Source: Gracilaria domingensis (taxonomy: Eukaryota > Rhodophyta > Florideophyceae > Gracilariales > Gracilariaceae). From it: a stretch of DNA of 64,000 bases. The notes beneath the pieces were generated by a model. That model searched no databases, had not been told where the DNA came from, and saw only the letters and a list, made by a program, of their open reading frames with translations. The stretch lies in the NCBI GenBank assembly GCA_022539475.1, contig VCMS01000198.1, forward strand, positions 1 to 64,000, written 5' to 3'. Numbering within the stretch: the stretch's first letter is position 1; every line of letters starts with the position of its first letter. Shown piece after piece: positions 1 through 34,482 of this stretch. Made by a program: the position numbers and the translations under genes.

Positions 1-217
1 CAAACATCTTCTTTGCCTCCGGAATATCCTTATAGTTCTCGGCGCAGAACTCTATTAACCCTCTAAACCCCACGTCCCGTGGCCGATCAGGGCCTCCATC
101 GCTGTTTGCCAAAGCATCGCGAAGAACCAAGAAAAGTCTGACATATGCATGGAACGCCGGAGGCGGAGCACTCATGTCGATAGGATGTATCTCCTCTCCA
201 ACATCGGTGGAATCCAT
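1..217 (-). CDS. Partial unknown gene, divergent partner of the ParB/dioxygenase locus
   Basis: An open frame begins with ATG at 217 and runs leftwards off the window without a stop (72 codons seen). A second in-frame ATG lies at 175. The N-terminus is short, proline-rich and then looks helical; I recognise no family. The reason to believe it is context: its upstream DNA (231-330) is a near-identical inverted copy of the DNA just upstream of the plus-strand ParB-like gene (1481-1579), and in both cases the repeat ends shortly before the first ATG. The two genes therefore look like a divergently transcribed pair under duplicated promoters. It may encode the transposase or partner protein of the same element, but nothing visible here proves that. 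Confidence 0.5.
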   Translation of the reverse strand, partial: MDSTDVGEEIHPIDMSAPPPAFHAYVRLFLVLRDALANSDGGPDRPRDVGFRGLIEFCAENYKDIPEAKKMF

Positions 218-230
218 CGCTTCAGCGCAA

Positions 231-330
231 ACAACGGAGGCGAGCCTTTAAATGGCGACTTACGCTGGGCACCCCCGCTTTCGGCAGCTCCTCCCAGCGC
301 ACTGCCAGTCTCGTCCGTGTCCGTGTCCGC
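231..330 (-). promoter_or_regulatory. Promoter-like inverted repeat, left arm
   Basis: This 100-bp segment is the reverse complement of 1481-1579 with only about two differences (one substitution in the TTTAAA-like core and one small length change). Its ATG-proximal end contains a TTTAAA-type AT core in otherwise GC-rich DNA, followed by GCTCGCCTCCGTTGT read towards the gene. Conservation of both copies directly upstream of two divergent ATGs suggests a core promoter or regulatory module. No transcription start can be seen from sequence alone. Confidence 0.5.
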
Positions 331-372
331 TCGGAGCGATAGCGTCGCGTGTCGGAGCGATAGCGTCGCGTG
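331..372. repeat. Two perfect 21-bp tandem repeats
   Basis: The unit TCGGAGCGATAGCGTCGCGTG occurs twice head to tail (331-351 and 352-372), just inside the left promoter-like arm. Each unit contains a CG-rich imperfect dyad, so it could be a protein-binding site. The right arm has no matching pair, so the two divergent promoters are not fully equivalent. Confidence 0.75.
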
Positions 373-565
373 TCGGCCACGTCGCGATTCGGAGCTATTG
401 CAACGGTCCCGTATTGTGCTAAAAGTCGCGGATCAAGTGGGTGTGAAGCGCTAGTTTTCTCTAGTTTGATATATGTGTACGGCGTGTGCAGCGAAATCAC
501 TGCCGGAAGTGCCGGGAGGAGTGTTTTGGGAGGTCTCCGGAAGGCGCCGGAATGTGACCAGAACG

Positions 566-639
566 TGCCCGCGGGCGGGGGGGTCCGGTCGTGTTAGGGT
601 AGGTACCCTAACACGACCGGACCCCCCCGCCCGCGGGCA
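566..639. repeat. Perfect 36-bp-arm palindrome, GG loop
   Basis: Arms 566-601 and 604-639 are exact reverse complements separated by GG. Each arm starts TGCCCGCGGGC, has a run of seven G, and ends GTGTTAGGGTA. As DNA or RNA this would form an extremely stable hairpin. Confidence 0.9.
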
Positions 640-674
640 TAAAATCGCACATTTTTCAAAAAATCGTCCAAAAT

Positions 675-750
675 GTGCCCGCGGGCGGGGGGGTCCAGTC
701 GTGTTAGGGTACCTACCCTAACACGACCGGACCCCCCCGCCCGCGGGCAC
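675..750. repeat. 37-bp-arm palindrome, CC loop
   Basis: Second copy of the same hairpin, in the opposite central orientation (loop CC rather than GG), with one arm mismatch (CCAG against CCGG). It is followed by a spacer resembling the one before hairpin 1. Confidence 0.9.
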
Positions 751-1030
751 GTTTTCGACGATTTTTTGGCACCCTCCGGAGACCTCCCAAAACACTCCTC
801 CCGGCACTTCTTGTACCCACTGCGTCACCTCAGTGAACCATCCCGGAAATTAGGGAGTGTCTGGAGGGTGGAGAAGACGGGATGGTCACCTCAGTGCACC
901 ATCCCGGAAATTAGGGAGTGTCTGGAGGGTAAGATGACGGGATGGTGCACTAAGGTGACGCAGTGGGTACAGGAAGTGCCGGGAGGAGTGTTTTGGGAGG
1001 TCTCCGGAGGGTGCCAGAATGTGGCCAGAA

Positions 1031-1110
1031 CGTGCCCGCGGGCGGGGGGGGTCGGTCGTGTTAGGGTAGGTACCCTAACACGACCGACCCCCCCCCCGCC
1101 CGCGGGCACG
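1031..1110. repeat. 38-40-bp-arm palindrome, GG loop
   Basis: Third hairpin. The inner arm reads GTCGGTCG rather than GTCCGGTCG, and the C run is longer on the right, so this copy has drifted from the first two while keeping symmetry, as expected if arms are homogenised by gene conversion or foldback repair. Confidence 0.88.
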
Positions 1111-1144
1111 TTTTGGGCGATTTTTTGAAAAATGTGCGATTTTA

Positions 1145-1217
1145 TGCCCGCGGGCGGGGGGTCCGGTCGTGTTAGGGTACCTACCCTAACACGACCGACC
1201 CCCCCCGCCCGCGGGCA
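1145..1217. repeat. 36-bp-arm palindrome, CC loop
   Basis: Fourth hairpin, CC-loop orientation like copy 2, with an arm difference near the GGTCGG segment. Pairs 1/2 and 3/4 sit in mirror-image order about the centre of the array. Confidence 0.85.
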
Positions 1218-1480
1218 TTCGCACATTCCGGTGCCTTCCCGGGACCTCCCAAAACACGCCGCCGCGCAGTGATTTCGCTACACCCGGCCGCCGGTACGTT
1301 GGCGCCGCTGTCCACGTGTATTGGCGGGAGTAGGCTGTACATGGAAGTGAATGAGTGTACTCTTGACTACTATGCAAAGCATTTGAAGAGCATGATTAGA
1401 GAACGCGACCATTGCTCGCGTGAGTCATCATTGCGCGAACTCCACGACTCTAAAGCGTACAATCAGCGTGCGAGCGGCCA

Positions 1481-1579
1481 CGGACAGGACACGGACGAGA
1501 CTGGCAGTGCGCTGGGAGGAGCTGCCGAAAGCGGGGGTGCCCAGCGTAAGTCGCCTTTTAAAGGCTCGCCTCCGTTGTT
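1481..1579 (+). promoter_or_regulatory. Promoter-like inverted repeat, right arm
   Basis: Reverse-complement partner of 231-330. It ends about 60 bp before the ATG at 1639 of the ParB-like gene, with CTTTTAAAGG as a possible TATA-like core. The same module directly upstream of both divergent reading frames suggests co-expression. Confidence 0.5.
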
Positions 1580-1638
1580 GTATCGTCCAGAGCGAGCGTA
1601 TTGTTGATATACACCTTTCACTGCAATAGCTGTTCAAC

Positions 1639-3037
1639 ATGAAGCCAACTCGTGTTCGAAAGCGTACGCAAAGCGTGACTCCTCGCACTCGGCGGAGCAC
1701 TCGATTATTGCAAGGTGGAATGCGGGTTTCTCTGCAGATGGATATTGAGGATGAAGGAAAGGTGATAGTCGGGGAAGCGTTGTTGCATGGAATTGGAAGT
1801 GTTCTACGCCGCGAGTTGCACGGGAAGCAATTGGACCCAGGTCTTGTGGTGGTTCATAATATTCTCATCAGTCGAAGCGGTCAGACGTTCTACCCTTACC
1901 GGGCGGAGGGCCTGGATCTTCCACAATATATCCAGGATCTCCGGACGGCCGCTCCTTGGGATGAGAAAATGATGGAACCGGTGGCAGCCAGCATTCCGGC
2001 GTCGAAGCGAGGAACGGTGAGCGCTATGAGTGAGGTGATGACGCCGACAAGCCGCACGGAGCCAATTCGAAGTTCATCAACACCGAGAGGTAGCGCATCA
2101 GTAGCACCTCCGCGGGCAGGTCCGTCGTCTTTACGAAGCGGTCTATGGAGACGAGAGCATCCCCAGCTACGAAGCGGACAGGTCAAACAAAGTCTACCTC
2201 CGCTACGAAGCCCACTGCGTCGAAAAGGGCTTCTCCTGCGATGAATCAGACCGTCGACACAAGGGGAACTTCTGCGTCGAAACAGACGGTTCAGCAGGGG
2301 ACGGCTGTGCAAGAGGAGGAAGATGAGATCATGAAAGGTCCCCTTCCAGACGCGGATGCGCAATCCGCGCAAGGAGCTGGTCCATCTGTACCCCAAACTG
2401 CACCAGAAACTGCGGAGCAGCAGGACGATGACGTTGTGCTTCTGTCCGCAAGAATGGCACGTTCAAGTGTTTCTGGCGAGCGGTCTGGAACACAAGGGAC
2501 ACCTACTCGGAGCAAGACGTACAGACGAATTCGTCAGAAGGTACCAAAGGTGAACCTCAATCAGTACCGGATGGTTGTTGTTACTGTTGACATCACTCTG
2601 GTGGACACTCCGCCCAATTTACTCCGTGGAGTAAGTAAACGCCACGTTGAAGCCCTTGTGAAGAGTATGGAGGAGCGGGGATATTGCAGTCGATGGGTTC
2701 TCCAGTGGTGGCCTTACAAGATGCTACTACGGGAGAGAGGGATACTGACAAGGGACGCCTAACGAAGAAGTGCTTCATTGTAGATGGTTTGCATCGTCTG
2801 AAAGCTATACAATATTTGGCAGCGACTGGTGCACCGAAGTGGAAGCGATTAGCCAAGTTTTGGCGTTGCAATCTGCTGATACGAAGAGATGGGAGGCCCA
2901 TTGGGATGAAGGAATTGTTATGTGTTGCTTCGTACCTCAATGAGTCGACGAGTACCATGCGAAGGATGATGTTTGCAGACAAGATACACTCTATAGTTAG
3001 TGTGGTCGCCATTCTAATTGAAGATGTTGAGGGGTGA
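1639..3037 (+). CDS. ParB-like (ParB-N/sulfiredoxin fold) domain protein, frame-interrupted
   Basis: ATG at 1639 opens a basic N-terminus rich in R/S/T, then a helical segment, then a repetitive TKR/SAT linker (about 2105-2290) and an acidic patch. The conserved part begins near 2560 with a strand-like VVTVDITLVD, a proline-led segment and a helix KRHVEALVKSMEERG, then KKCFIVDGLHRLKAIQ (2771-2815). The order 'proline motif, helix that positions a repeat unit, then D-G-x-H-R' is the ParB-N signature (D-G-H-H-R in bacterial ParB, D-G-Q-H-R in DndB). In this domain the motif binds or cleaves nucleotides. The coding frame moves by -1 near 2110 and again near 2675, so the locus is decayed, contains base-level errors, or uses frameshifting. 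Function in DNA binding is inference. Confidence 0.6.
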
Positions 3038-3660
3038 CGCCGGCAGACGTGGATCCTGCAGAAGTGACAGAAGTGTTGAAGGAGAGCCAACTGATTGGGA
3101 CTGTGCAAGAGCGTCAGTACCTGAGATATGCCAATGTCGCCCTGCAACTCATGTCTCGTGAGGGAATGCTGGCCCATTTCGAGGATATATGTGAGACTGT
3201 GAGTGACATAGGTCTCACACATCTGTCCCATACTCCGCTATATGTTTTGGATGCCGAGGAGTTTTCCTTCATTCTTGATTGTCTTCAGATGTTTCTATTG
3301 AAGGGCAAGTCGACGAAGACAAAGCAATGGAAAAGCTTTGAGGAGGTTCGAGGTTTCTTTTATGATAGAGCAGTGTCTCTGTTCCGCGCGGCTAGAGCAG
3401 TGAGGAATGAACTGAACGAGGAAGAGTCCATGGAAGTGTTCCTGAAACGCGAAGTCAGTCTTTCTGCTCCATCGAATGAAGATGACGTTGAAGACCCAGA
3501 CAACAACGCAGCTGTGTATCAGTTCCTTTTGGGACAAGTTGTGAACTTCAACACATTGCCGCGTGTTCGGAGCAGGACGAACTCAATTAGAACTGCCACG
3601 ACTTCCGTTCAGAATCGATTGCGGACGATGCTCAAGGTAATTCCGCCCCCGCACCAGTGA
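3034..3660 (+). CDS. Helical domain of unknown family within the ParB/dioxygenase locus
   Basis: This frame starts by a 4-base GTGA overlap with the end of the ParB-like frame and runs 208 codons to TGA. It looks alpha-helical, with acidic patches (NEEESMEVF, NEDDVEDPDNN) and a basic C-terminal end; I recognise no family. It may be the continuation of the ParB-like protein (central or C-terminal helical domain) rather than a separate gene: there is no ATG at its start and no promoter-like gap. The next frame again starts through a GTGA overlap at 3657. Confidence 0.5.
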   Translation: MTPADVDPAEVTEVLKESQLIGTVQERQYLRYANVALQLMSREGMLAHFEDICETVSDIGLTHLSHTPLYVLDAEEFSFILDCLQMFLLKGKSTKTKQWKSFEEVRGFFYDRAVSLFRAARAVRNELNEEESMEVFLKREVSLSAPSNEDDVEDPDNNAAVYQFLLGQVVNFNTLPRVRSRTNSIRTATTSVQNRLRTMLKVIPPPHQ

Positions 3661-4232
3661 AGCAGTCCGTGACGAAGAGGAGGACTCCCGCTGCTGCTGC
3701 TGCAACATCTGACAGTGAAGAAGGGGAGCCGCGAAGAAGTGCACGAGAACGGGCGCAGGTGAGTTATAGGGAAATCGAACACGGCCGAAATCGAGGTGCC
3801 ATAGAAGTTCTGGATAGCTCTGAAGAAGAACAGCGGGCTCCGCCGAGGAAGAAACGGAGAAAGACTTTCACACAACAGATGAGATCTACTCTGAACAGCA
3901 TGACACCGGATGACCTGATGTCTCAACTAAATGAACATGTGCTGAGAGGAAGGTCGATGAAGGTTCAGTTCGTGGCATTGGGAGAGGGAGCGAATGCAGA
4001 GAACGCAGGCAGTTCTGCATTTGTGGATGACGAAGAGCTTCTTTCTGTGACAGTTCCACGGGTTGTCACCGTCGAGAAAGATGCTGCGCCAGACGATCAG
4101 CAAGAGACAGGTGGGGGGTCATTTGATGACGAGTTACCTACAGCTCTTCCGGAATCTGAGGAGCACGGACTTGTTCGAGGTGACCCATATGATGGCCCAC
4201 GAACCCATCATGGTGCGGGTATGCCAGGCTGA
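3657..4232 (+). CDS. Low-complexity linker with nuclear signals, same locus
   Basis: 191 codons: an alanine run, then basic PRRSARERAQVSYREI, a hydrophobic-acidic AIEVLDSSEEE segment that looks like a SUMO-interaction motif, and PRKKRRKTF, a strong nuclear-localisation signal. After that comes a short predicted helix and an acidic tail. It connects the helical region to the dioxygenase domain with a -1 frame change near 4225, so it is probably a linker of one large nuclear protein or the N-terminus of the dioxygenase. No catalytic domain is visible here. Confidence 0.5.
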   Translation: MKQSVTKRRTPAAAAATSDSEEGEPRRSARERAQVSYREIEHGRNRGAIEVLDSSEEEQRAPPRKKRRKTFTQQMRSTLNSMTPDDLMSQLNEHVLRGRSMKVQFVALGEGANAENAGSSAFVDDEELLSVTVPRVVTVEKDAAPDDQQETGGGSFDDELPTALPESEEHGLVRGDPYDGPRTHHGAGMPG

Positions 4233-5550
4233 GACCGCAGGAATGGCAAGGGAAGAACGTAATTGAGCACAAGGACCCCTGGCTCAGAGTCATTCACTTG
4301 CCGAAGGGACATAGGTCGGAGCTGCTAAGTGTCTCGAATCTCAGAGATGTACACCATCTTGTCTTTTGGCACGCTGCAAGGGCTGAACATCGCCTACGGG
4401 CGGAGACATTTGGTATGCAGTATCCTCGTACTCGACCGACAGGTATGGATGATGAAGAGGTGCTGTGGGTTGCTGCGAAGGAGCATGACGAATTTGGGCA
4501 AATGTTCTTCGCCCGAATGCAAGCTGAGCTAAGGCAGAATGGATATTGCGTGCTTGATGGCTTTGCGACGGATAATGGTGTCCCTAAATGGGAGGAGTTG
4601 GAAGAAGTTCGGGAGTTCGGAGATGTGTCGGGGAAGTTGGTGGACTTCTTCGAGAATGAGTATGGAGCGATGCCGGATATACGGAAAGGAGAGGAACAGA
4701 AGTCGTTTGTTCAAATAATCAACGATGATGAAGGATGGAAGGACGGTAGCGATGGACCATTTGAGGGGAGAGTGATGTCGACACGTTGGGGTACGGTGGA
4801 GAAGCCGGAGGATAATGAGGAGCTCAGGTGGGTTGTAAGGTCGCGTGCTTTACTTGATGTTCGAATGGGTACAATTGCTGCGGCTTTGGGACTATGGGAC
4901 AATGAAAGGGAAGCTGTGAAGATGTACACTCCGAAAACTGGTGGTCGATTTCTGGGGACGACGAGAAAGTGCAAGCGCCAGACGCTGCACACCGACTTCA
5001 GTGGTCTGGTTACGAAGGAAACAATGAATACTGGCAACCCCGGATACTTTGTAATGGCCTCTGGGAAAGAGGGCTTTCCTCTCTGGGTGAGCGCTGGAAG
5101 CCATCAACTGGTGGGATGAACAACCAACAGTTGCGAGTGATGTCGGAGGTGTATCCAGCGAAGAAGATAATCATCCCACCGTACTCTGTATTCGTGGGCC
5201 GTGGTGATGTGACACATGCTGGAGCAAGTGGGAAGGACAAGGTGGATAGGCCCGAGTCTATGGATTTGCTGGTTAGATACCACATGTACATGGTACCAGA
5301 GGGCTACGCACTACCTGATGCTGTTCATCGGGTGCGGGATTTCCGACCCACGTTTGTCAATGGTGACGAGGAGGAGGAGGCGGAGGATGAACTGTTGTCC
5401 GATAAGGAGGGTGGGGCGGTTGACATGGACGAAGACCAAGTGGTCGTGGAGATTGGTGTGGAAGCGGACGCCGGTAGAACCGAAGTGCTCGAGAGTAGTA
5501 GTGATGACGATTTGCCAATAATGAGGCTGCGAGCGCCTCGAAGTGGATGA
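4230..5550 (+). CDS. 2-oxoglutarate/Fe(II)-dependent dioxygenase-fold protein (JBP/TET- or phytanoyl-hydroxylase-like)
   Basis: From about 4235 a continuous coding frame runs to 5117, then moves by -1 to end at TGA 5548-5550. It contains ELRQNGYCVLDGF, the first strand-helix typical of phytanoyl-hydroxylase-like 2OG dioxygenases. The iron motif H-x-D follows in LHTDFSG (His 4988, Asp 4994), then PLWVSAGSHQ, matching the LwvxPGSH segment of the family. The distal His is in GDVTHAG (5215) and the 2OG-binding Arg in LLVRYHMY (5275). All four ligand positions of the double-stranded beta-helix are therefore present. The C-terminus is acidic and ends with a VLESSSDDD segment resembling a SUMO-interaction motif. 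Substrate is unknown; coupling to a ParB-like domain makes DNA or chromatin plausible. Confidence 0.65.
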
Positions 5551-5846
5551 GAATGAGATGATTAGTAAATTATGTGTGTCTTGCGAGTATTAAGAGTAGT
5601 ATACTATTACAAGGCTATACATATGAACATAGAAAAGGTGCGGCAGGCTGGTAATTGAACAAATGTCAAACGTCTTTGGTCCAGTTGCGTCTAATTGCAA
5701 CATGCCAAATGCTCGGTATCGTTAACATCATTGGTGGCACCAGTCAATTCGCAATTGAACATGTAGCGTCCTAACATTTCTGAAACTGCACTTAAGGTTG
5801 CTTTTAAGAGAAGTATGAAACTGAGAAGTCTATACAGTTCCTGTCT
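5551..5846. other. Intergenic, nothing recognised
   Basis: AT-richer DNA between the dioxygenase stop and the first HAD gene. I looked for an inverted copy of the left-hand repeats that would mark the right end of a transposon and did not find one. Confidence 0.5.
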
Positions 5847-6722
5847 ATGCGGTACTTGTGGCAGTATGGTGACTGTATCAGGAAAAATGGCAGAGGAACA
5901 GAGAGACTTGGCGGAAATTTCACCAATACCTTGTCTAAGTTCATATATGCCAATGGTTACGGTATATTAAGTTCCGTTGATGGAACGTTGAGAAGAGAAG
6001 GAGAGTCAATTCCAGAAGAAGTTGTGAAGTGTATGAAGTTCATTGACGAACGTGTTGGTTTCGGACTTGTCACAGGGGGTGATGTGGGCGACGTGGAGGG
6101 GAAAATGGAAGGACTCGGAGACTATAAGTTTGGTGTCTCGGCGAATCATGGAGCTTTCCTGCGTTTCTCTGACGAGAGGGAAATTAAGGGTGCATTCAAT
6201 GATCACACCTTGACCACACTGTTGACGGACTACTGTTCCTGGCAAGGGATTTGAATAGGAGGCATGGTATTGTGAATGATGATGACAAGGGTTCGTGGAG
6301 ACCAGAAGTGATAGTGGCCTTCCCAATTTCGTGTACAACAAACTGTGGCAGTGGAAAGAAGAAGTGGATTCTGCTATTGGGGACCTGTTGCAGAAGATGG
6401 ATGCGTTTGTTATCTATCCCGGCGATAAAAGTTGCGAAATTGTGGACAAGCGATACACAAAAGAAGCGGAGGAGAAAATCTTGTGGATAATGAACCGAGA
6501 TTTATTGATACGGATGACGTCGTGACGTTCGGAAGTGCTTTGAGCGACGGGCCTTTGCATGAGGTAGGCGTGTACGGCGTTCACGTCAAAGAAGATTGTA
6601 TCCCGGGTGGAGTACACAACCTGTTCGAAAGCGTGGAGGATGTACATTCGACAATTATGTTGGTGGCTCTGTTGTACGGCTACGAGGAAAAGCAGCACGA
6701 TAAAAACCACCATGAATCATAG
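5847..6722 (+). pseudogene. HAD-IIB (Cof/mannosyl-phosphoglycerate-phosphatase-like) hydrolase, broken copy 1
   Basis: The N-terminal segment FIYANGYGILSSVDGTL aligns with the second copy's FENGYAVISDVDGTL. The nucleophile Asp of HAD motif I (D-x-D-G-T) is replaced by Ser here, so the enzyme would be dead even if translated. Motif II (VTGGD) and the C-terminal ND-GPL..VHVK segment (motif IV region, SDGPLHEVGVYGVHVK) follow. The coding signal changes frame at least twice between 6240 and 6530 and ends at TAG 6720-6722. HAD-IIB enzymes remove phosphate from sugar phosphates; red algae make mannosylglycerate through such a phosphatase, but that assignment is only a suggestion. It lies tail to tail with copy 2, 30 bp apart. 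Confidence 0.65.
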
Positions 6723-6752
6723 AAGGGTATTGAGATATATACGACACTTTTA

Positions 6753-7631
6753 TTACTGAGATCTCATATCATAGCTAAGTATTACAGGCATCGTAGCACT
6801 GGAAACAAATTCCAAGAGCATTTCTAAACCATTGACACTTGCATTTTCTGTACCCGTACAGTTCTGCCACCCTTCTGATGGTCTCATGCACGTCCTCCAC
6901 CCATCAACAAGATATGTTACCGCTGCTGGATGGTCTTCTCCCTTCACATGAACTGCCAGGGTTGCCATTTCATATAGAGGGCCATCATTGGAAGCATTCC
7001 CGAAAGCAACGATTAAATGTTTGTCGAACTGGGGGTCGTTTTCAACCAAGGCTAGCGCCCCACTATTTTTCGTGAAACGAATGTCCCCTATGTCACAGTT
7101 TTCATCTTGAGGGTACGCAACCAGGTTCGGAAAGGATGTCAACACTTTTGAAATACCGGAGTTAACTTCTGTTTTCCACTTCGACAGTCCATTGTACGTG
7201 AAGTTAGGGAGTCCACTGTCTTTTCTAGTGCTCACCACTGCTTGTTGACGCTCTTCGTGAAGTCCGTGCGATTCATTTAAGGAGAGTGCAAGTCTCTCAA
7301 GTTCGGCTGCACATCTTTCTTACCCTTCCCTGTCAAGGTCCTGATCAATTTCGGTACCATTGGATAATCTCACCCGTGCGCCTTGGTTTCCAGAGATGCC
7401 AAAAGTGTAGCCACCCAGGTGCTCCATGAAACTCTCGGCATCCTCTATATCTCGCCCAGTAGCAATTCCGAAACCAACGCGTGCGTTGATGCACTTCAAG
7501 CATTTGACTGTTTCGGCAGGAATGTTCTCCCCAGCTCTTTTCAGAGTACCGTCAACATCACTAATCACGGCGTAGCCATTTTCGAATATTTCGTTAGCCA
7601 GCTGCTGAGGAGTTACTTCTTGGGCTCTAAC
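6753..7631 (-). pseudogene. HAD-IIB hydrolase copy 2, one internal TAA
   Basis: Better preserved than its neighbour. From about 7631 it reads EVTPQQLANEIFENGY then AVISDVDGTL (motif I intact), GIATGRD (motif II), and later VAFGNASNDGPLYEMATLA with VHVKGEDHPAAV (motifs III-IV: G-N-x-x-N-D). The frame is interrupted only by TAA at 7320-7322, after which it continues in the same frame (ERCAAELERLALSLNE) to the end. A TAA also closes it at 6753. There is no clear ATG at the 5' end. The single stop at what would otherwise be a continuous protein makes this either a very young pseudogene or a case of read-through. Paralogue of copy 1, convergent. Confidence 0.65.
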
Positions 7632-7639
7632 TTCTGATT

Positions 7640-8272
7640 ATACATGTTTTTGAAAGCTTTCGAAAGGGTTCGATTTGCAAATGGGTGTGGGTATACGAAT
7701 GAGAAGGATGTGATTGATGTTCACAAGGTGTTTCGTAGTATAGGAAGAGTCTAAGAACGACCATATACCGTATTGTAGTACTGTTTTAAAACGTTACTAG
7801 GAGGAGAAATTTTTGCATCGATTTGAAGTAAGGAAGGGATGATTTAGTCATAAATTATATGTACGGGTTCAAGTGGGTAAAGAAAACTGTAAATATCTTT
7901 AACATGAGCTTAGAAACCAAGAAGAGTAAAACAACCTCCATTACGGGTTGAAACCCATAAAAGGTTTACCTTACTTTATACGGGTGCCCCAAGTAATGCA
8001 AACGCTTAGTTCTTCAGAAATATCACAATTTTTGTACTTGTTTCGTTACTAGTATCGTGCACTTTAATGATATGGAATGACCATTTTCTATCTAGCAAAA
8101 TCTTAGCGAAGTATTAGTGATAAGGGATGTAGGATTTAAAGGGGCATATTTGAACCACAGAAGGACGAACAATATAAGTAATGTAATAGGAACAGGTCAT
8201 TTCGATAAAGTAACTTTTATGTTTAACTATCTCTAAAAGGTTTACAACACCGAAAAGTCATGTGTTCTAACC
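7640..8272. other. Intergenic, AT-rich
   Basis: No coding signal, RNA gene or long repeat recognised. It separates the 5' end of HAD copy 2 from the 3' end of the ketopantoate-reductase-like gene. Confidence 0.5.
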
Positions 8273-9175
8273 TCAAAGCTGGGGGAATGGGGAGGGGGAT
8301 AACTTTTCCTTAACAACGTTGACGTAGTTTGTATGAAAAGGAGCGGGGTCACCGCCTACAATGTTTCTTTCTTGGCGGGAAAAGTCGTAGAAGTACGCGT
8401 TCCTAAACTGAAAGTCGGAGAAAGAAGTAGGGAAGCCAATGAGAGTTTTCCCATATGCAAGAAGTCGCCCAACGGTCTCTTCCAGGTTGAAAGTAGTACC
8501 TGTCTTAAGCGAAACTATCTTCAACAGCTCTTTCATTATTGTGAGCACAACCGTACTGCACTCCGTAGCGACTACGTCCATAGGAATGAAACCTCTTGAG
8601 GCCCCGACGATGTTGAACGCTGATAGCCACACGAGCTTCTCATAATAGCTTACGAGAAATGTGTCTTCGTCGACAACCCCGCAAGTGAGACCCATAGACC
8701 TAAACCTGTCTGCAACGTTGGAGGCCCACTTTCCTGTTGCGACAGTGAGACCATCCGGACTTTGAGGAGTGACACAATCCTGCGGAGCTGCGTTTCTTGA
8801 GAGGACACCAACGTATAGGACAACTTTTGAACATTTGTCCACACCGAGCTTCGAAACCAATGGTATGATGTCTCCATTCTGGAAGAAAACGAGATTCTCT
8901 CTGAGCGAATAAGGACAAGCCTGAATTACGGTCTCCAGGGTGTTCGTTCTTCCACAAACTAGTATCGGTACATCAGAAAGATGAGAGGTAGCAGCCATGC
9001 TGCAGAATTCGTGTGCGGAAATGACCGTATCTTCTTCGTTCGCCAGCATGGTACCTATACGTCCCCTTCCAACAATAACGGCCCGAGTCCTTCGGGCGGG
9101 AGATGAGGCCTGAGGGACGTCAGAGTATCTGGGACTCGGAGGCGGAGTGGGAGGCATGTCGGACTGGGAGTTCAT
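8273..9175 (-). CDS. Ketopantoate reductase-like (ApbA/PanE family) oxidoreductase
   Basis: A 300-aa intact reading frame from ATG 9175 to TGA. I chose this ATG because the upstream extension (to 9376) lacks family features. After a proline/serine-rich leader comes the Rossmann nucleotide-binding motif AVIVGRGRIGTML (G-x-G-x-x-G), with LVCGRTNTLE at the position of the second strand. The C-terminal helical domain contains YYEKLVWLSAFNIVGA, matching the family's K-L-x-x-N-x-x-x-N helix: the Lys and the second Asn are kept, the first Asn is Ser. The family reduces 2-dehydropantoate with NADPH in pantothenate synthesis; divergent eukaryotic members may act on other 2-oxo acids. No organelle-targeting peptide is obvious. 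Confidence 0.75.
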   Translation of the reverse strand: MNSQSDMPPTPPPSPRYSDVPQASSPARRTRAVIVGRGRIGTMLANEEDTVISAHEFCSMAATSHLSDVPILVCGRTNTLETVIQACPYSLRENLVFFQNGDIIPLVSKLGVDKCSKVVLYVGVLSRNAAPQDCVTPQSPDGLTVATGKWASNVADRFRSMGLTCGVVDEDTFLVSYYEKLVWLSAFNIVGASRGFIPMDVVATECSTVVLTIMKELLKIVSLKTGTTFNLEETVGRLLAYGKTLIGFPTSFSDFQFRNAYFYDFSRQERNIVGGDPAPFHTNYVNVVKEKLSPSPFPQL

Positions 9176-9587
9176 TGCAAGTGTTCGAATGTTTTTGTGT
9201 GACGATAGAAATGGAAGATGGGGCGGAGAACTGCTGGGGTAAAGAGTGATACTTAAGTAAAAACGGTTGGGAAGCGCAGAACGGGAACATGGTTCACTTT
9301 GTGAAAGTGAGCGTAATGTATGATATGTGATTGTACTGAATGAATGATAGGGGTTGTATGACACGACAAGCCACAAAGTGTGATGATGTTTTATGAAAAG
9401 TAGGTGGAAGAGTAGAAAGTGTGCAATGAATAAAACTGATTTCGAACCTGAGTTGTAGAGTAGTTGTAAAGTACGAGTTACGGGGAGCTTGAATACAGGA
9501 TGAAAGGAGCCATTTTGGCTTCATAAATGACGTGAACGGGTTCTATAGCTTCACTTGGATTGCCATAATTAAAAGGATGGAGTTTGA

Positions 9588-9881
9588 TTGCGCCCGAATA
9601 CGTCTATAAAGGTCGTAGAAGCAGTTATGAAGGAAGGAGTTGTAGACATGTTATTGTTGATGACGCTGGAGCCAGGGTTTGGAGGACAGGCGTTTATGGA
9701 GGGTGTTCTTGATAAGGTGCGACATGCAAGGGAGTTGTACCCAAGAATAGGGATACAGGTGGATGGGGGTATTGGAGTGAGTACTGTGAAAGGAGTAGTG
9801 AAGGCCGGTGCAAACATTTCAGTTGCAGGATCTGCCATCTTTGGCTCGAGTAACCCAGCTCATATCATAGCTGGTTTTTGA
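9588..9881 (+). pseudogene. Ribulose-phosphate 3-epimerase, 5'-truncated
   Basis: About 97 codons match the C-terminal half of RPE: RPNTSIKVVEA, then LLLMTLEPGFGGQAFMEGVLDKV (the VMTVxPGFGGQ signature), IQVDGGIGVSTV (phosphate-binding VDGG) and NISVAGSAIFGSS. The Zn/active-site residues of the N-terminal half (SILSAD, HLDVMD) should lie upstream, but 9380-9587 encodes nothing of the kind and there is no ATG. It ends at a proper TGA. I therefore call it a truncated copy. The functional enzyme interconverts ribulose-5-P and xylulose-5-P in the Calvin and pentose-phosphate cycles. Confidence 0.85.
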
Positions 9882-9961
9882 AAGGTTGGTTAGAGATAGT
9901 AGCATAAATGTATTGTTTATTACATTGTTACCTTTACGTGTTATCACGACTATATTCTCCG

Positions 9962-10296
9962 TCTCCATTGGAGATGTATTTCTCTTGTATCACAACCGGG
10001 AAAGGATGTGAGAGAACATCAATATATCCCCAGTGGACGCTGAGAGGGAGGATGAACTACTCTACGTGCTACCATTGTTACCCATCCGGTGTCGAGTGGT
10101 GACATATTCTTTTTTTGTCACAACCCACAAAGGATGTGACGGAAGAAGAACATGCCCCCAGTCGAGACAGAGGGTGAGCAACTCTAAGTACAATCACTAG
10201 TCCCTAGCTTGCCTCCACTGGCAATATCTTCCTGTTTTGCTATAACCATCGAGTGGGGTTATGGTGGAAGAGAAAAATATCGCCGGTCGAGGCGAG
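9962..10296. repeat. Three ~125-bp tandem repeats, each an imperfect hairpin
   Basis: Units begin near 9962, 10088 and 10213. Each has a left arm (CTCCATTGG / GTCGAGTGG / CTCCACTGG type), a central hairpin built from CACAACC..GGATGTG or TATAACC..GGTTATGG, and a right arm containing CCCCAGTGGA / CCCAGTCGA / CGCCGGTCGA. Units have diverged but compensating changes keep the arms paired. They end about 240 bp before the start codon of the coiled-coil gene, so they may be regulatory or transcribed into structured 5' RNA. Confidence 0.75.
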
Positions 10297-10533
10297 GTGG
10301 GTGGGGATTATGTGAGCGCGAAAGAGGAGACAGAGAGGTGGCGCTCAAATAGTGGAAGGTGCGAAGGTGTACAGTAGATGTTTTGGCGGGAAATGGGATG
10401 AGGGAAACAGGGACAATCATGGTGCTCGATATAGCCCGTGTGGTTGGACAGTGGGGGTGGACAGCACAGTTTAGCTCGATTGCACTGTATCGCAGCGGAA
10501 ACTTCGATCCAACTACTACTTCTTTTTCTGAAA

Positions 10534-11463
10534 ATGTCGAACGGATACGTGAAGGATGAGGAGCTGTTGGCGCTGTTGGAGGGGGAGGAGGTACCGCAGA
10601 CGCCGTCACCAAAGCGGAAAGAGGACATGATTACGGCGGCTGGTCGCATGTCGCAGAAGAAGGAAGTGGCTGATGAAGGAAGGAAGTGTGAGGCGAGGAG
10701 AGGGGATGGTGATGAGGTGGAGAAGGGGGTAGAATTGGAGGTGGAGGGGGTCGCAATGGAGAGAAGGGGTGCGGTGCATCTGAGTCAGTTAGAGGTTGGA
10801 GACCAGATAGAGAGTGGGGGCGGAGAGGGTGACAGGGAGATGCGTTTTGTGGGGGAGATGAAGGCGAGGGTGGGGATGTTGGGGTTGGTGATGAAGGGGC
10901 AACTGGACGATGGAATTGTGGAGATTGTAACGGAAATGGGCGGTGTGGTGCTGAGTGGGGGTGGTAGTGGTGTTTCGGTTGAGGCGATTTCGAGCCTGCG
11001 GATTTCGTTGTCGGTATTGGGAGTGGAGATGAGAAATCATGTGTATGGGATAGTGGAGTGTGCGGGAAGGGAGGTTGGAGAGTTGCGGGAGGAGAATAGG
11101 GTTCTGAACGAGAGGTTGGACGTGCTGGAGAAGGAGGAGAAGGAGCTGTGCAAGAGGCAAAGATTGGTGGAAGAGGAGACGGTGAAAGGAGGTGTGGAGG
11201 GAAAGACGGAGAAGGGAAGTGTGGGAAGGGTGGCGGTGCAGAAGGGGTCTCCTGTGACACCGAAGACAAAGGGTGGTGGGGTTGGGGATGGGAAGAGCCG
11301 TCTGAAGAAGAGGCGTAAGGAGATGAAGAAGGTGGTGGAGGAGGTGCCGCGGGAGGGAGTCGGAGCTCCGGTGGTGACTGGGTTTAGGAGTGCGGCGGAG
11401 GTAGCGCGGACTGCGAAGGGGATTCTGAGGGGACAGGAGGAGAGAAGGATGGGAGGGATTTGA
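10534..11463 (+). CDS. Coiled-coil protein of unknown function
   Basis: A 309-aa open frame from ATG 10534 to TGA. The composition is dominated by E, K, G, R and V, written in purine-rich codons (GAG, AAG, GGG). The N-terminus MSNGYVKDEELLALLEGEEV is followed by a charged linker. A hydrophobic middle (MLGLVMKGQLDDGIVEIV...) leads to a clear coiled coil at about residues 190-235 (LREENRVLNERLDVLEKEEK) and a Lys/Arg-rich C-terminal half with nuclear-signal-like KSRLKKRRKEMKK. I recognise no family. The long G-rich strand also yields large antisense open frames, which I regard as shadows. It could be a nuclear structural protein or the ORF1 protein of a non-LTR element; no reverse transcriptase follows. 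Confidence 0.5.
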   Translation: MSNGYVKDEELLALLEGEEVPQTPSPKRKEDMITAAGRMSQKKEVADEGRKCEARRGDGDEVEKGVELEVEGVAMERRGAVHLSQLEVGDQIESGGGEGDREMRFVGEMKARVGMLGLVMKGQLDDGIVEIVTEMGGVVLSGGGSGVSVEAISSLRISLSVLGVEMRNHVYGIVECAGREVGELREENRVLNERLDVLEKEEKELCKRQRLVEEETVKGGVEGKTEKGSVGRVAVQKGSPVTPKTKGGGVGDGKSRLKKRRKEMKKVVEEVPREGVGAPVVTGFRSAAEVARTAKGILRGQEERRMGGI

Positions 11464-12470
11464 AGCCGTTTTGGGGCGAGGCGGGTATACGAGAAGGGGG
11501 AGGGTTGTCCACCTGACTTCTACAAAATGACGTTTGCGGAGACGGAGAGAGAGGATGGGAACGCGTGATGGGCGAGAAATGGGTAAATAGCGGGGGTGGT
11601 GTGGACTGGGAAGAAGTGATGGGATGATTGAGGTGGGATGAGTTGCGATTGGCATTGCAACATGGGAGAAAATGGAAACGCAAACTAGCACGAGTGCAGT
11701 TTTGAGAGAGGGTCGCGGAAAAGAGTGAATGGGGTGGTGCGGCGAAGTAGAACCTCTACAAAAACTAGGGGACCCAAGAACTAAACTGCGCGAGATGGAA
11801 TTTAGTATTCCAAAATTTCTTAATTTTTTGAGTGCCAGCCTCTGCTACCCCCTCGCGCGCCCCAAATAGCCCCAAAACTAGCTTAGTTTCCAAAGCGAAC
11901 AGACTATATTCCACTTTGCAGAACACAGACGGAAATCAATTATTTTAATAGTTTATTTCATTTTTGGGAGGCCTCTTGGAGTGTAGCCTGACAACGCGGG
12001 GTACAACATGCGAGCAATTGGAGGGCAGATAGAGTGCAAAGTGTATCGCTTGCACTCAAAATGACCTCCATCGGCACGGCGCATGTCCTCCATTTGGAAA
12101 ACTTTAAGTTGAGCTCCCAACGGAAATCGCAGGCGCGCTAAATGAAGTCCATCTGGCATCCAAGTATCTCATCCATGAGTGCCAATCAACCTCAAATTTC
12201 ACTCCTCTTCTTCCAAAAATTTCTTTTAGGGGGAGCTCTGCCCGTCACTGTTACTCCGGCTTCGAAAGCTTGAAACGATGTGGTTGAAATCCCTTGATAC
12301 TGTTACCTAGAAGTTCAACTGGGTCCCAGTCAGCTTGCGCAAAACTCGTTGTTCGAGGATCTGCAGTTTCTCCGACGGATGCTTGACCAAGCTGAAATCG
12401 GAGATCCGACAGAAGACATTCGTGTCTTAGATCAGGACGTGAATTACATGTAAGAAAACTTGGGAGCACC
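11464..12470. other. Intergenic, no gene recognised
   Basis: The first 250 bp keep the purine-rich composition of the preceding gene. The rest is neutral and includes AT tracts near 11810-11830 and 11940-11960. No coding or RNA signal is supported. Confidence 0.45.
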
Positions 12471-32697: not shown

Positions 32698-34482
32698 TTA
32701 TGGGCGACTTCTGAGATTCATGGTAGCATCCCTGAACCACAGTCGGGCATAATTGTTAAGTGCTTGAGTCCCAGATTCAGAAACCCACTCTTCAGCTTCT
32801 TTTTCTGCGGCTGTGCGTTTCCTACCTTCAATGGTCTCACCAATAACTCCTTTAATCATCGCCGAGATCATTGCCTTGCATTGCTTCCCCGTATTTACCG
32901 ACTTCGCCTTTTTGGGAGCTACAGGCCTCCGACGCGGTTCATAGCGCAGAAGATCTTGATACGTGCCAGAGTCGAGCTCTATCTCCTCAACAGAAGCAAA
33001 GCTGTTGGCGTCTTCAACACGCTTTAGTTGCCGTACACCTAGTTTAGCTCTGTTTCGTCTGATACTTAAATCCATGAGCTTCGACTCCAGCCAGTGTTCA
33101 TCCACAGCCCGCAAGAGAGCAGACCGCTCCTCCGACAGAGTGCACTCGATCACGTTCTGCCTGCAATCAAACATGAAATCGGTCACAGATGTTGGAGGCT
33201 TGCGATTAGCGTATCCAGGTTTGTCGGCCTTCAGAGCAAAATCCAAGAATTCGACGTAACACATGCACCAACTCTCGCACTCCTCACTGATGTAAACAGT
33301 GTCATCAACCGCATCAGTAACTTTCGTCACTCTCAAAACACAGCAACAAATAGCTGGAAGGGTACCTGCAACGCTTCTCGCCTTTTCACTGAGCATCCAT
33401 ATGGTCAGGTTGGTGTGGTCGGGCGGAATCTCATAGCCTTTTCCCTCCCTGAAATATGCGCGAAGGGCCACAATATGCCTCGCCCAGTCCAAAATCGAGC
33501 GACGACCATTCTGCGCACCAGTCATTCCAGCGTAGTAACCACTATCAAACATAGAGCTGTGCGGTTTTGAATTGGGCGACGGATACGTAGCGTGTGCCGA
33601 CCCCAATCGTCTCCTCTTCTTCGTTCTCTGAGAAAGAGAGTCCATCTTCATTTTCCGTGACGTTCCAACCGCAGCTGGTACCATGTCCCATTCAATCTCG
33701 TTTCCCTCCAAGTGGAAATCATCGCTAGGATCAACTTCCGCTTGCATGTCGAAAGGACTGACTTGTTCCGTACGATCCCATTGCACGCCGACCGCGCTCA
33801 AAAGCTGTTCCTTGAGATCGGGCAAAGAACCTTCTTCTTTTTGAGTCTGGGCGTTTTGAATAAAGAGCATCAACGGTTTGTACCGTTGGCCACCCCGAAG
33901 ATGTACTTTGACGTGACCATAATCGAGGTGGTAGTCAATAAGACGTATAAAGGTGAGGCACCACGACCAGTATCTGTTTCGGTATTCGGGCCTTAGAAAG
34001 TCCTTACGACAATCATGAAATGTTGGTGAAGCGTTGCAGACGGTGAGCACACATTTGAGCAAGATTGGTAGCGAAGCGTTTTCCAAGGCACGATGTTGTT
34101 CAGAGATCCATTCTCGAGTTGCGGACGTTAAGGCAGTGGTTTGCGGAAGTTGACGCCATCTTCTGAGCTCGATGAGATTGCGCACCCAGTCATCGACAGA
34201 CGAGAGTTCGTCAGTGAAAGGAAGGGGAGCTGTCTGGCTGGCGACGCGGTTCGGACGTACTGGACGGCGAGCCCGAGGCAAGACGCTGAGTGGCGCTGAA
34301 GAATCCCAGTCTGAGGTGGAGTCATCATCGCTTGATAAAACACAGCCCGACTGTGGTCTGCCGTGTTCGTCTATGGTGTACCACTCTCGCGTTCGCTCCG
34401 TCTTCCTTGCCGTGGAACGGTTGGAAGGTCGACGGCGTGCTCTGGATCGAGCGAGCGGGTCGTTTGCTCGTCGAATGGCCAT
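32698..34482 (-). CDS. 594-aa protein with an internally duplicated domain, unknown family
   Basis: An intact single-exon frame; the ATG at 34,482 opens MAIRRANDPLARSRARRR. A basic, disordered N-terminus with a DDDSTSDWDSS patch is followed by a first domain at about residues 95-215 (DDWVRNLIELRRW ... LLKCVLTVCNA ... YRNRYWSWCLTFIRLIDYHLDYG). A linker with KKRRRLGS follows, then a second domain at about 335-445 (LDWARHIVALRAYF ... ICCCVLRVTKV ... CESWCMCYVEFLDFALK). The two segments share the order 'D-W-x-R-x-x-x-x-L-R, hydrophobic C-C/L-T-V core, then W-C-x-x-[YF]-[IV]-x-[FL]-[LI]-D', so I infer an ancient tandem duplication. The C-terminus is again basic. I know no family with this pattern. 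It ends at TAA (32,698-32,700), beyond which the frame remains open for 63 codons. It is transcribed divergently from the HD gene. Confidence 0.75.
   Translation of the reverse strand: MAIRRANDPLARSRARRRPSNRSTARKTERTREWYTIDEHGRPQSGCVLSSDDDSTSDWDSSAPLSVLPRARRPVRPNRVASQTAPLPFTDELSSVDDWVRNLIELRRWRQLPQTTALTSATREWISEQHRALENASLPILLKCVLTVCNASPTFHDCRKDFLRPEYRNRYWSWCLTFIRLIDYHLDYGHVKVHLRGGQRYKPLMLFIQNAQTQKEEGSLPDLKEQLLSAVGVQWDRTEQVSPFDMQAEVDPSDDFHLEGNEIEWDMVPAAVGTSRKMKMDSLSQRTKKRRRLGSAHATYPSPNSKPHSSMFDSGYYAGMTGAQNGRRSILDWARHIVALRAYFREGKGYEIPPDHTNLTIWMLSEKARSVAGTLPAICCCVLRVTKVTDAVDDTVYISEECESWCMCYVEFLDFALKADKPGYANRKPPTSVTDFMFDCRQNVIECTLSEERSALLRAVDEHWLESKLMDLSIRRNRAKLGVRQLKRVEDANSFASVEEIELDSGTYQDLLRYEPRRRPVAPKKAKSVNTGKQCKAMISAMIKGVIGETIEGRKRTAAEKEAEEWVSESGTQALNNYARLWFRDATMNLRSRP

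Follow-up and report, generated by a model that had tools for sequence, protein, structure and literature searches.

A giant Plavaka-type transposon of the red alga Gracilaria domingensis encodes a ParB-like protein fused to a probable dioxygenase, opposite a DNA methyltransferase-SET gene

What is the role of a red algal gene that seems to join a ParB-like domain to the core of a 2-oxoglutarate (2OG)/Fe(II) dioxygenase? Such a gene lies on the + strand near the start of the DNA analyzed here (the window: 64,000 nucleotides of Gracilaria domingensis, contig VCMS01000198.1, positions 1 to 64,000), and the initial annotation, made from the sequence alone, took it for a candidate undescribed DNA- or chromatin-modifying system, perhaps carried by a mobile element. 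We compared the window with the G. domingensis genome (77.9 Mb, 680 contigs), in which copies are labeled by contig (C20, C100, C169 and so on). The guess of a mobile element proved correct: judged by shared termini with differing flanks, a Plavaka transposase and hundreds of exact ends, the region belongs to a giant, multiplied Plavaka-type DNA transposon, on which the gene stands opposite a divergent DNA methyltransferase-SET gene across an array of palindromes (Table 1).

The right end of the element, ...CTTTGCAGAACACAGACG at window position 11931, is common to six of six copies with differing flanks, one base being different in C20, and outward comparison of the copies gave CGTCTGTCTCTTGCAGATGC as the left end. 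The termini, CGTCTGT..ACAGACG, are short imperfect inverted repeats, and 2-bp target duplications (AT, CT and AG) fit three of the four testable insertions, C100 being the failure. Genome-wide, the exact left and right ends occur at 465 and 491 places, respectively, and the reversed patterns at none. Elements with both ends and the ParB-dioxygenase gene measure 21.5-22.8 kb (C20, C178 and C100), while 14 exact-end pairs on contigs C2-C17 span 6.4-22.9 kb (11 below 15 kb, three above 20 kb); the single short copy read, on C169, corresponds to the long form with an internal deletion. Since the window starts at the contig end, its positions 1-11931 hold the right part of the element only. The Plavaka transposase (PF18759) scores above cut-off on the + strand of C20 (E 1.6e-6) and C169 (E 3.9e-10), and it matches at least 123 genome places (best 123 of 672 candidates scored).

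Are the two domains truly parts of one protein? A search with the dioxygenase open reading frame (ORF; E 1e-3 or better, best 7,998 candidates scored) returned nine proteins matching at 24-36% identity, including one from Gracilaria and one from Chondrus crispus. Three of them, P0002, P0006 and P0008, each combine DGxHR close to the N-terminus with HxDF close to the C-terminus; the ParB part lies outside P0001, P0003, P0005 and P0007, P0004 and P0009 start behind the motif, and the Chondrus crispus protein shows the dioxygenase part alone. Additionally, a divergent genomic copy (C20:221257-224088) aligns continuously and free of stops with residues 17-972 of P0002. With both domains in one frame in these three relatives and this copy, the fusion of the ParB-like and HxD...H domains, as initially proposed, is real. 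Both parts also lie in the same frame at nine further picked genome places, an agreement that is supportive only, because the intervening gap was unread and one of these places, C18, is known to be broken. The open-frame lengths listed for the genome matches were rejected as proof of a single frame: C18, listed at 1152 amino acids (aa), is broken in the comparison of 11 copies, so that these lengths seem to run through stop codons. P0002 as a genome query (best 46 of 781 candidates scored) gave 92 matches. A divergent ParB-dioxygenase gene is also seen on C382, in three match pieces with 29-48% identity to P0002, together with three partial N6_N4 methyltransferase matches.

In the window itself, the motif codons stand in order on the + strand at the places first assigned to them (Table 1), with LWVSAGSH starting at 5081 and GRGDVTH containing the distal His codon. 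The coding stretch had been described as colinear and on one strand; order and strand hold, and a single frame does not. Seven mostly overlapping ORFs (1639-2244, 2145-2762, 2684-3037, 3034-3660, 3657-4232, 4298-5119 and 4969-5550) span the gene, the HxD and the H...R pair lie in different frames, and where nuclear-signal and SUMO-interaction-like segments were initially suggested, basic and acidic stretches are visible by eye between the motifs. The gene has at least 41 matches in the genome, some of them partial (best 40 of 410 candidates scored). Among 11 copies compared, 22 columns vary in length and 10 by substitution alone; codons 1-674 are uninterrupted in four copies, and none is open from end to end. 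That length differences outnumber substitutions suggests assembly error in repeats or young decay, and the frame breaks look like one of these rather than introns, which were rejected as the main cause given that break sites differ from copy to copy. Two Gracilaria gene models of the element gene, P0010 and P0011, carry the names 'cell-wall-anchored protein SasA' and 'mediator ... subunit 15-like'; the HxD...H core is missing from both, apparently an artefact of gene prediction.

Structure comparison (a model and fold searches) assigns the N-terminal domain to the ParB/sulfiredoxin (ParB-CTPase) fold. The GxxR phosphate motif of Box II is present as DGLHR or DGRHR in the window, P0002, P0006 and P0008, and DGxHR thus occurs in all three relatives that reach far enough. 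PHROG ParB-like matches are weak and were obtained for two of the four proteins tried. The Pfam profile PF02195 (ParB_N) was silent in the element proteins and in the genome, its control matching in 10 of 14 genomes, and the ParB region alone as a query found only Gracilaria proteins among the best 7,996 candidates scored. By model and fold comparison, together with the PHROG matches, the first domain is ParB-like, as the DGLHR motif had suggested.

The second domain is probably a 2OG/Fe(II) dioxygenase. Its HxD is kept in nine of nine aligned proteins and the distal His in eight, P0005 differing there; the HxD-H-R spacing alone is weak, since it appeared in 5 of 500 shuffles (one frame each). 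Profiles gave little: Tet_JBP and PF20515 had no match in the nine members at E up to 10, nor did PhyH in the same nine, and a genome search with PF20515 had no match, its control giving none either. PhyH matches only two places in the genome, C182 and C336, and the domain aligns weakly but in register with two Gracilaria PhyH proteins (E 0.017, probability 2.7). Dioxygenase sequence profiles compared with solved structures gave no plausible match; prolyl 4-hydroxylase was listed at E 1.2, covering the N-terminal 41 positions only. A viral contig scan yielded 20 pattern matches and no relative, and a contig scan with a Gracilaria PhyH protein as the only query, made for the comparison profile, yielded no relative. 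The initial assignment as a dioxygenase is thus supported by the metal-binding residues and not by the Tet_JBP and PhyH profiles or by the dedicated model considered below.

Which substrate would such an enzyme have? We take the core order HTDF...LWVxxSH...GRGDxxH to resemble that of phytanoyl-type enzymes. The target might accordingly be a protein (histone or transposase) or a small molecule instead of DNA bases, with the ParB-like part acting only as a tether. Favoring this are the weak PhyH alignment and the SET domain of the partner gene, which is of a protein-modifying kind; the neighboring methyltransferase is, on the other side, of the DNA type, and the dioxygenases borne by fungal transposons are of the TET/JBP type (PMC12730594). 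We consider a protein or small-molecule target somewhat unlikely.

The partner gene begins within the window and continues past the contig end. A 679-aa ORF of a copy on C169 has the same N-terminus and extends into the methyltransferase domain found in C20; it has no Pfam domain besides the methyltransferase. On the - strand of C20 we found SET (E 1.5e-8) and N6_N4 methyltransferase (E 1.9e-16) matches in ORFs that overlap in different frames, and the relative P0012 (953 aa), which aligns to the element ORFs, has PF01555 and PF00856 in one protein. N6_N4 methyltransferase matches in the genome were taken from the best 150 of 328 candidates scored. For P0012, the NCBIfam models that score best belong to adenine-specific enzymes (CcrM, E 2.9e-8, 33 bits where the cut-off is 830), which makes adenine the likelier methylation target. 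ParB-like domain and methyltransferase are not in one protein here; they are encoded by two divergent genes. Divergent encoding of a writer and a putative oxidase in this first family, and the same order on C140, would also fit a hypermodified base, in which element DNA, once methylated by the methyltransferase, has its methyl group oxidized by the dioxygenase into a protective mark with no erasure. We regard this as unlikely.

The module recurs beyond the first family. By eye, the Plavaka and N6_N4 methyltransferase matches form several score groups. On C22, a second family has transposase, coiled-coil-like ORF, SET and methyltransferase in the order and orientation of the first, at identities of 46%, 36%, 42% and 28-41%, respectively. 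C140 also keeps the order, with Plavaka at 136009 (+), methyltransferase at 144795 (-) and the ParB-dioxygenase gene at 149213-151909 (+), and a 721-base piece of this copy retains HTDF, NPGYF, WVxxGSH and GRGDxxH. At C22:683101-696096, the left part of the second family abuts a first-family element inside its coiled-coil-like gene, a junction that could be a nested insertion, recombination or an assembly chimera.

Could the module simply be captured cargo with no function for the element? That no copy among 11 is open end to end would fit, as would the 11 of 14 paired elements below 15 kb, which would have no room for the entire module if built like the short C169 copy. Against it, the order of transposase, coiled-coil-like ORF, SET and methyltransferase is preserved in the second family, and relatives at 24-36% identity have the fusion again and retain HxD; we find passive cargo highly improbable. 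Within the genome, constraint on the gene appears mild at most: the ratio of nonsynonymous to synonymous substitution rates (dN/dS) for C104 (97% identical, with in-frame stops) versus L003 is 0.63 in the first ORF and 0.52 in the second, and 0.87-1.44 in wrong frames. The conservation between families and relatives is the stronger sign of selection.

Between the two divergent genes, a 93-nt inverted repeat flanks a region with four copies of a 30-bp palindrome (Table 1). The exact palindrome occurs at 907 genome places, and the reversed control at none. Among the palindromes listed, neighbors lie close together in 31 cases, 12 of them with a spacing of exactly 110 bases. With 49 listed palindromes used and a fiftieth, on C17, left out, 33 fall within the 14 exact-end elements; one or more occur in 11 of these elements, where the distance from the left end is about 5-6 kb (9 kb in a single element). 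In the C169 deletion derivative, the methyltransferase-SET gene is gone and the ParB gene is down to 81 bases, and the array region is kept with two exact palindromes. This retention fits a cis-acting site, and we view the array as a candidate docking site; hairpin-promoted deletion is an alternative explanation for it. The palindrome (window 588-1195) contains a telomere-like TTAGGG, probably by coincidence.

The sequence itself shows the element with its ends and order of genes, the fusion, and the methyltransferase-SET gene that runs divergently from it; we infer array recognition, spreading and substrate as follows. The gene product would be an accessory protein of the giant Plavaka-type transposon. 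Its ParB-like part (nucleotide pocket and helical region) would recognize element DNA, most likely the 30-bp palindrome array, and perhaps close and spread along DNA as bacterial ParB does, whereupon the C-terminal Fe(II)/2OG dioxygenase would oxidize modified bases or chromatin on the element. Together with the DNA (probably adenine) methyltransferase-SET protein, it would set the element's own chromatin state, with escape from silencing or control of transposition as the outcome; because the array persists in short elements, these may be targets of the proteins in trans. We tentatively favor this picture of a transposon-encoded, self-targeting epigenetic modifier, which recognizes the array, oxidizes on the element and is paired with the methyltransferase-SET protein, at slightly less than an even chance. 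Its most specific form appears quite unlikely: a nucleotide-switched ParB-type clamp that loads at a parS-like array and spreads the dioxygenase, as a sequence-addressed eraser paired with a writer that methylates DNA and histones, along the element and in trans along derivatives, presumably hundreds of them.

Several results weigh against the self-targeting modifier. No Pfam or NCBIfam profile matches the ParB-like or the dioxygenase-like domain, and the dioxygenase-only model is poor (mean predicted local distance difference test, pLDDT, 49.7), with fold searches giving no match and no known fold prominent. The Arg expected to bind 2OG, present in the window, is clear in only five of the nine relatives P0001-P0009: P0001 has Gly and P0007 His at this position, P0005 is unalignable and P0008 stops short of it, and the second-family C140 copy has Leu. 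Within the genome, dN/dS falls only slightly below 1 (0.46-0.63 for one pair, stops present). Moreover, elements of 12.5, 21.4 and 22.9 kb are without a palindrome, only one of the three elements above 20 kb has any, and two of eight compared copies (C100 and C178) show half-sites and no exact palindrome; the palindrome and the protein are linked by position only. The unconserved Arg would also suit a protein that serves transposition (end pairing, replication or copy partition) and whose dioxygenase-like part is non-catalytic and structural, and bacterial ParB proteins do act in DNA organization (PMC12704722); the invariant HxD (9/9) and the nearly invariant distal His (8/9) argue against this role, which we hold to be very doubtful.

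Further genes complete the element. In C20 the order is transposase (+), a 565-aa ORF (-) that is coiled-coil-like by eye, SET/methyltransferase (-), ParB-dioxygenase (+), two HAD-type genes, a 335-aa ORF and a 342-aa ORF. The two oppositely oriented HAD-type genes, longer in C20 than in the window, are by eye presumably phosphomannomutase relatives, and the 367-aa/335-aa cargo ORF looks to us ketopantoate-reductase-like. Elsewhere in the window, a 594-aa ORF (32698-34482, - strand) has an apparent internal repeat by eye.

Table 1 Features of the transposon in the window.
Feature	Position	Strand	Basis
5' end of divergent DNA methyltransferase-SET gene (MDSTDVGEE...)	1..217	-	ORF; remainder past contig end
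Left arm, 93-nt inverted repeat flanking the intergenic region	230..322	+	99% complementary to 1487-1579
30-bp palindrome GTCGTGTTAGGGTA-NN-TACCCTAACACGAC, copy 1, candidate docking site	588..617	.	Exact pattern
30-bp palindrome, copy 2	698..727	.	Exact pattern
30-bp palindrome, copy 3	1055..1084	.	Exact pattern
30-bp palindrome, copy 4	1166..1195	.	Exact pattern
Right arm, 93-nt inverted repeat	1487..1579	-	Pairs with 230..322
ParB-like/dioxygenase fusion gene, broken by length differences in the window copy	1639..5550	+	ORFs, copy comparison, relatives
ParB-like domain and following helical region; Box II-like DGLHR 2783-2797	2536..3660 (limits approximate)	+	P0002 alignment, model/fold searches, PHROG ParB-like match
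Low-complexity acidic/basic linker	3660..4290	+	ORFs; matching P0002 linker (residues 377-569) pLDDT <50
Putative 2OG/Fe(II) dioxygenase core	4480..5370 (limits approximate)	+	H 4988, D 4994, H 5215, R 5275
HAD-type (PF08282) cargo gene, broken in the window copy	5847..6722	+	301-aa ORF of C20, E 5.1e-5
Second HAD-type (PF08282) cargo gene, broken in the window copy	6753..7568	-	299-aa ORF of C20, E 1.2e-11
Cargo ORF, 367 aa	8273..9376	-	C20 335-aa counterpart without Pfam family
Charged ORF, 341 aa	10438..11463	+	C20 342-aa counterpart without Pfam match over cut-off
Right terminus ...CTTTGCAGAACACAGACG	11914..11931	+	Shared end in 6/6 copies; seventh, short copy also

The element thus seems to carry its own epigenetic toolkit. 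Should the favored mechanism be true, a selfish element would bring along one enzyme that writes epigenetic marks, another that likely erases them and a cis address for both, and a seaweed would offer a direct test of self-targeted escape from silencing. The ParB nucleotide-switch fold would then also include a eukaryotic enzyme fusion that the standard profile misses, and a new sequence-guided oxidase would become available.

Giant Plavaka elements are reportedly described by Petroll et al. 2025 in Bostrychia moritziana, and these may contain the same module. Giant EnSpm transposons with accessory genes in red algae are attributed to that study in PMC12477816, and the elements as cited there are, like ours, red algal, giant and equipped with multiple accessory genes. 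In the literature searched, with Petroll et al. 2025 outside it, we found no gene for a ParB-dioxygenase-like fusion that is paired, across a palindrome array, with a methyltransferase-SET gene. A survey of the ParB-CTPase fold describes GxxR as Box II and reports fusions to enzymes on mobile elements, a phage N6_N4 methyltransferase included (PMC12704722); the word 'dioxygenase' is absent from its main text, and unlike the fusions of that survey, the Gracilaria proteins escape PF02195, the profile named there. Plavaka-flanked giant repeats are known from Amoebidium, with genes including tyrosine recombinases that have red algal and dinoflagellate database matches (PMC11244446), and the text of a Gracilaria sex-chromosome paper does not mention 'Plavaka' (PMC12502185).

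Two published systems come closest. Giant transposons of Ectocarpus encode a ParB-like/DNA-methyltransferase protein proposed to bind and modify its own element, and green and red algal cases of such accessory proteins are cited (PMC12477816). A giant algal DNA transposon, a ParB-like domain and an N4/N6-type DNA methyltransferase are common to both systems. In that Sola element, however, ParB-like domain and methyltransferase share one protein, whereas in Gracilaria the ParB-like domain has a dioxygenase-like domain as its fusion partner, and the Plavaka element encodes the methyltransferase together with SET in another gene that runs divergently. TET/JBP dioxygenases are carried by fungal DNA transposons, Plavaka among them, and other transposons have SET genes (PMC12730594). 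The fungal Plavaka elements and ours share the transposon type and a dioxygenase accessory gene; ours differs in having no TET/JBP profile match, the ParB fusion, a methyltransferase-SET partner and other termini, as CGTCTGT..ACAGACG matches neither TGT..ACA of PlavakaA nor CATCA..TGATG of PlavakaB. In Plavaka, 2-bp target duplications occur (PMC12730594). The initial claim, taken as an undescribed system standing alone, is therefore not supported: the gene is one of several on a Plavaka transposon with a methyltransferase-SET gene, and algal ParB-like/methyltransferase proteins have been published (PMC12477816). As ParB-methyltransferase proteins, TET on Plavaka and SET on transposons are all known, what the Gracilaria element presents, unless the Bostrychia study already describes it, is a new combination of known ingredients.

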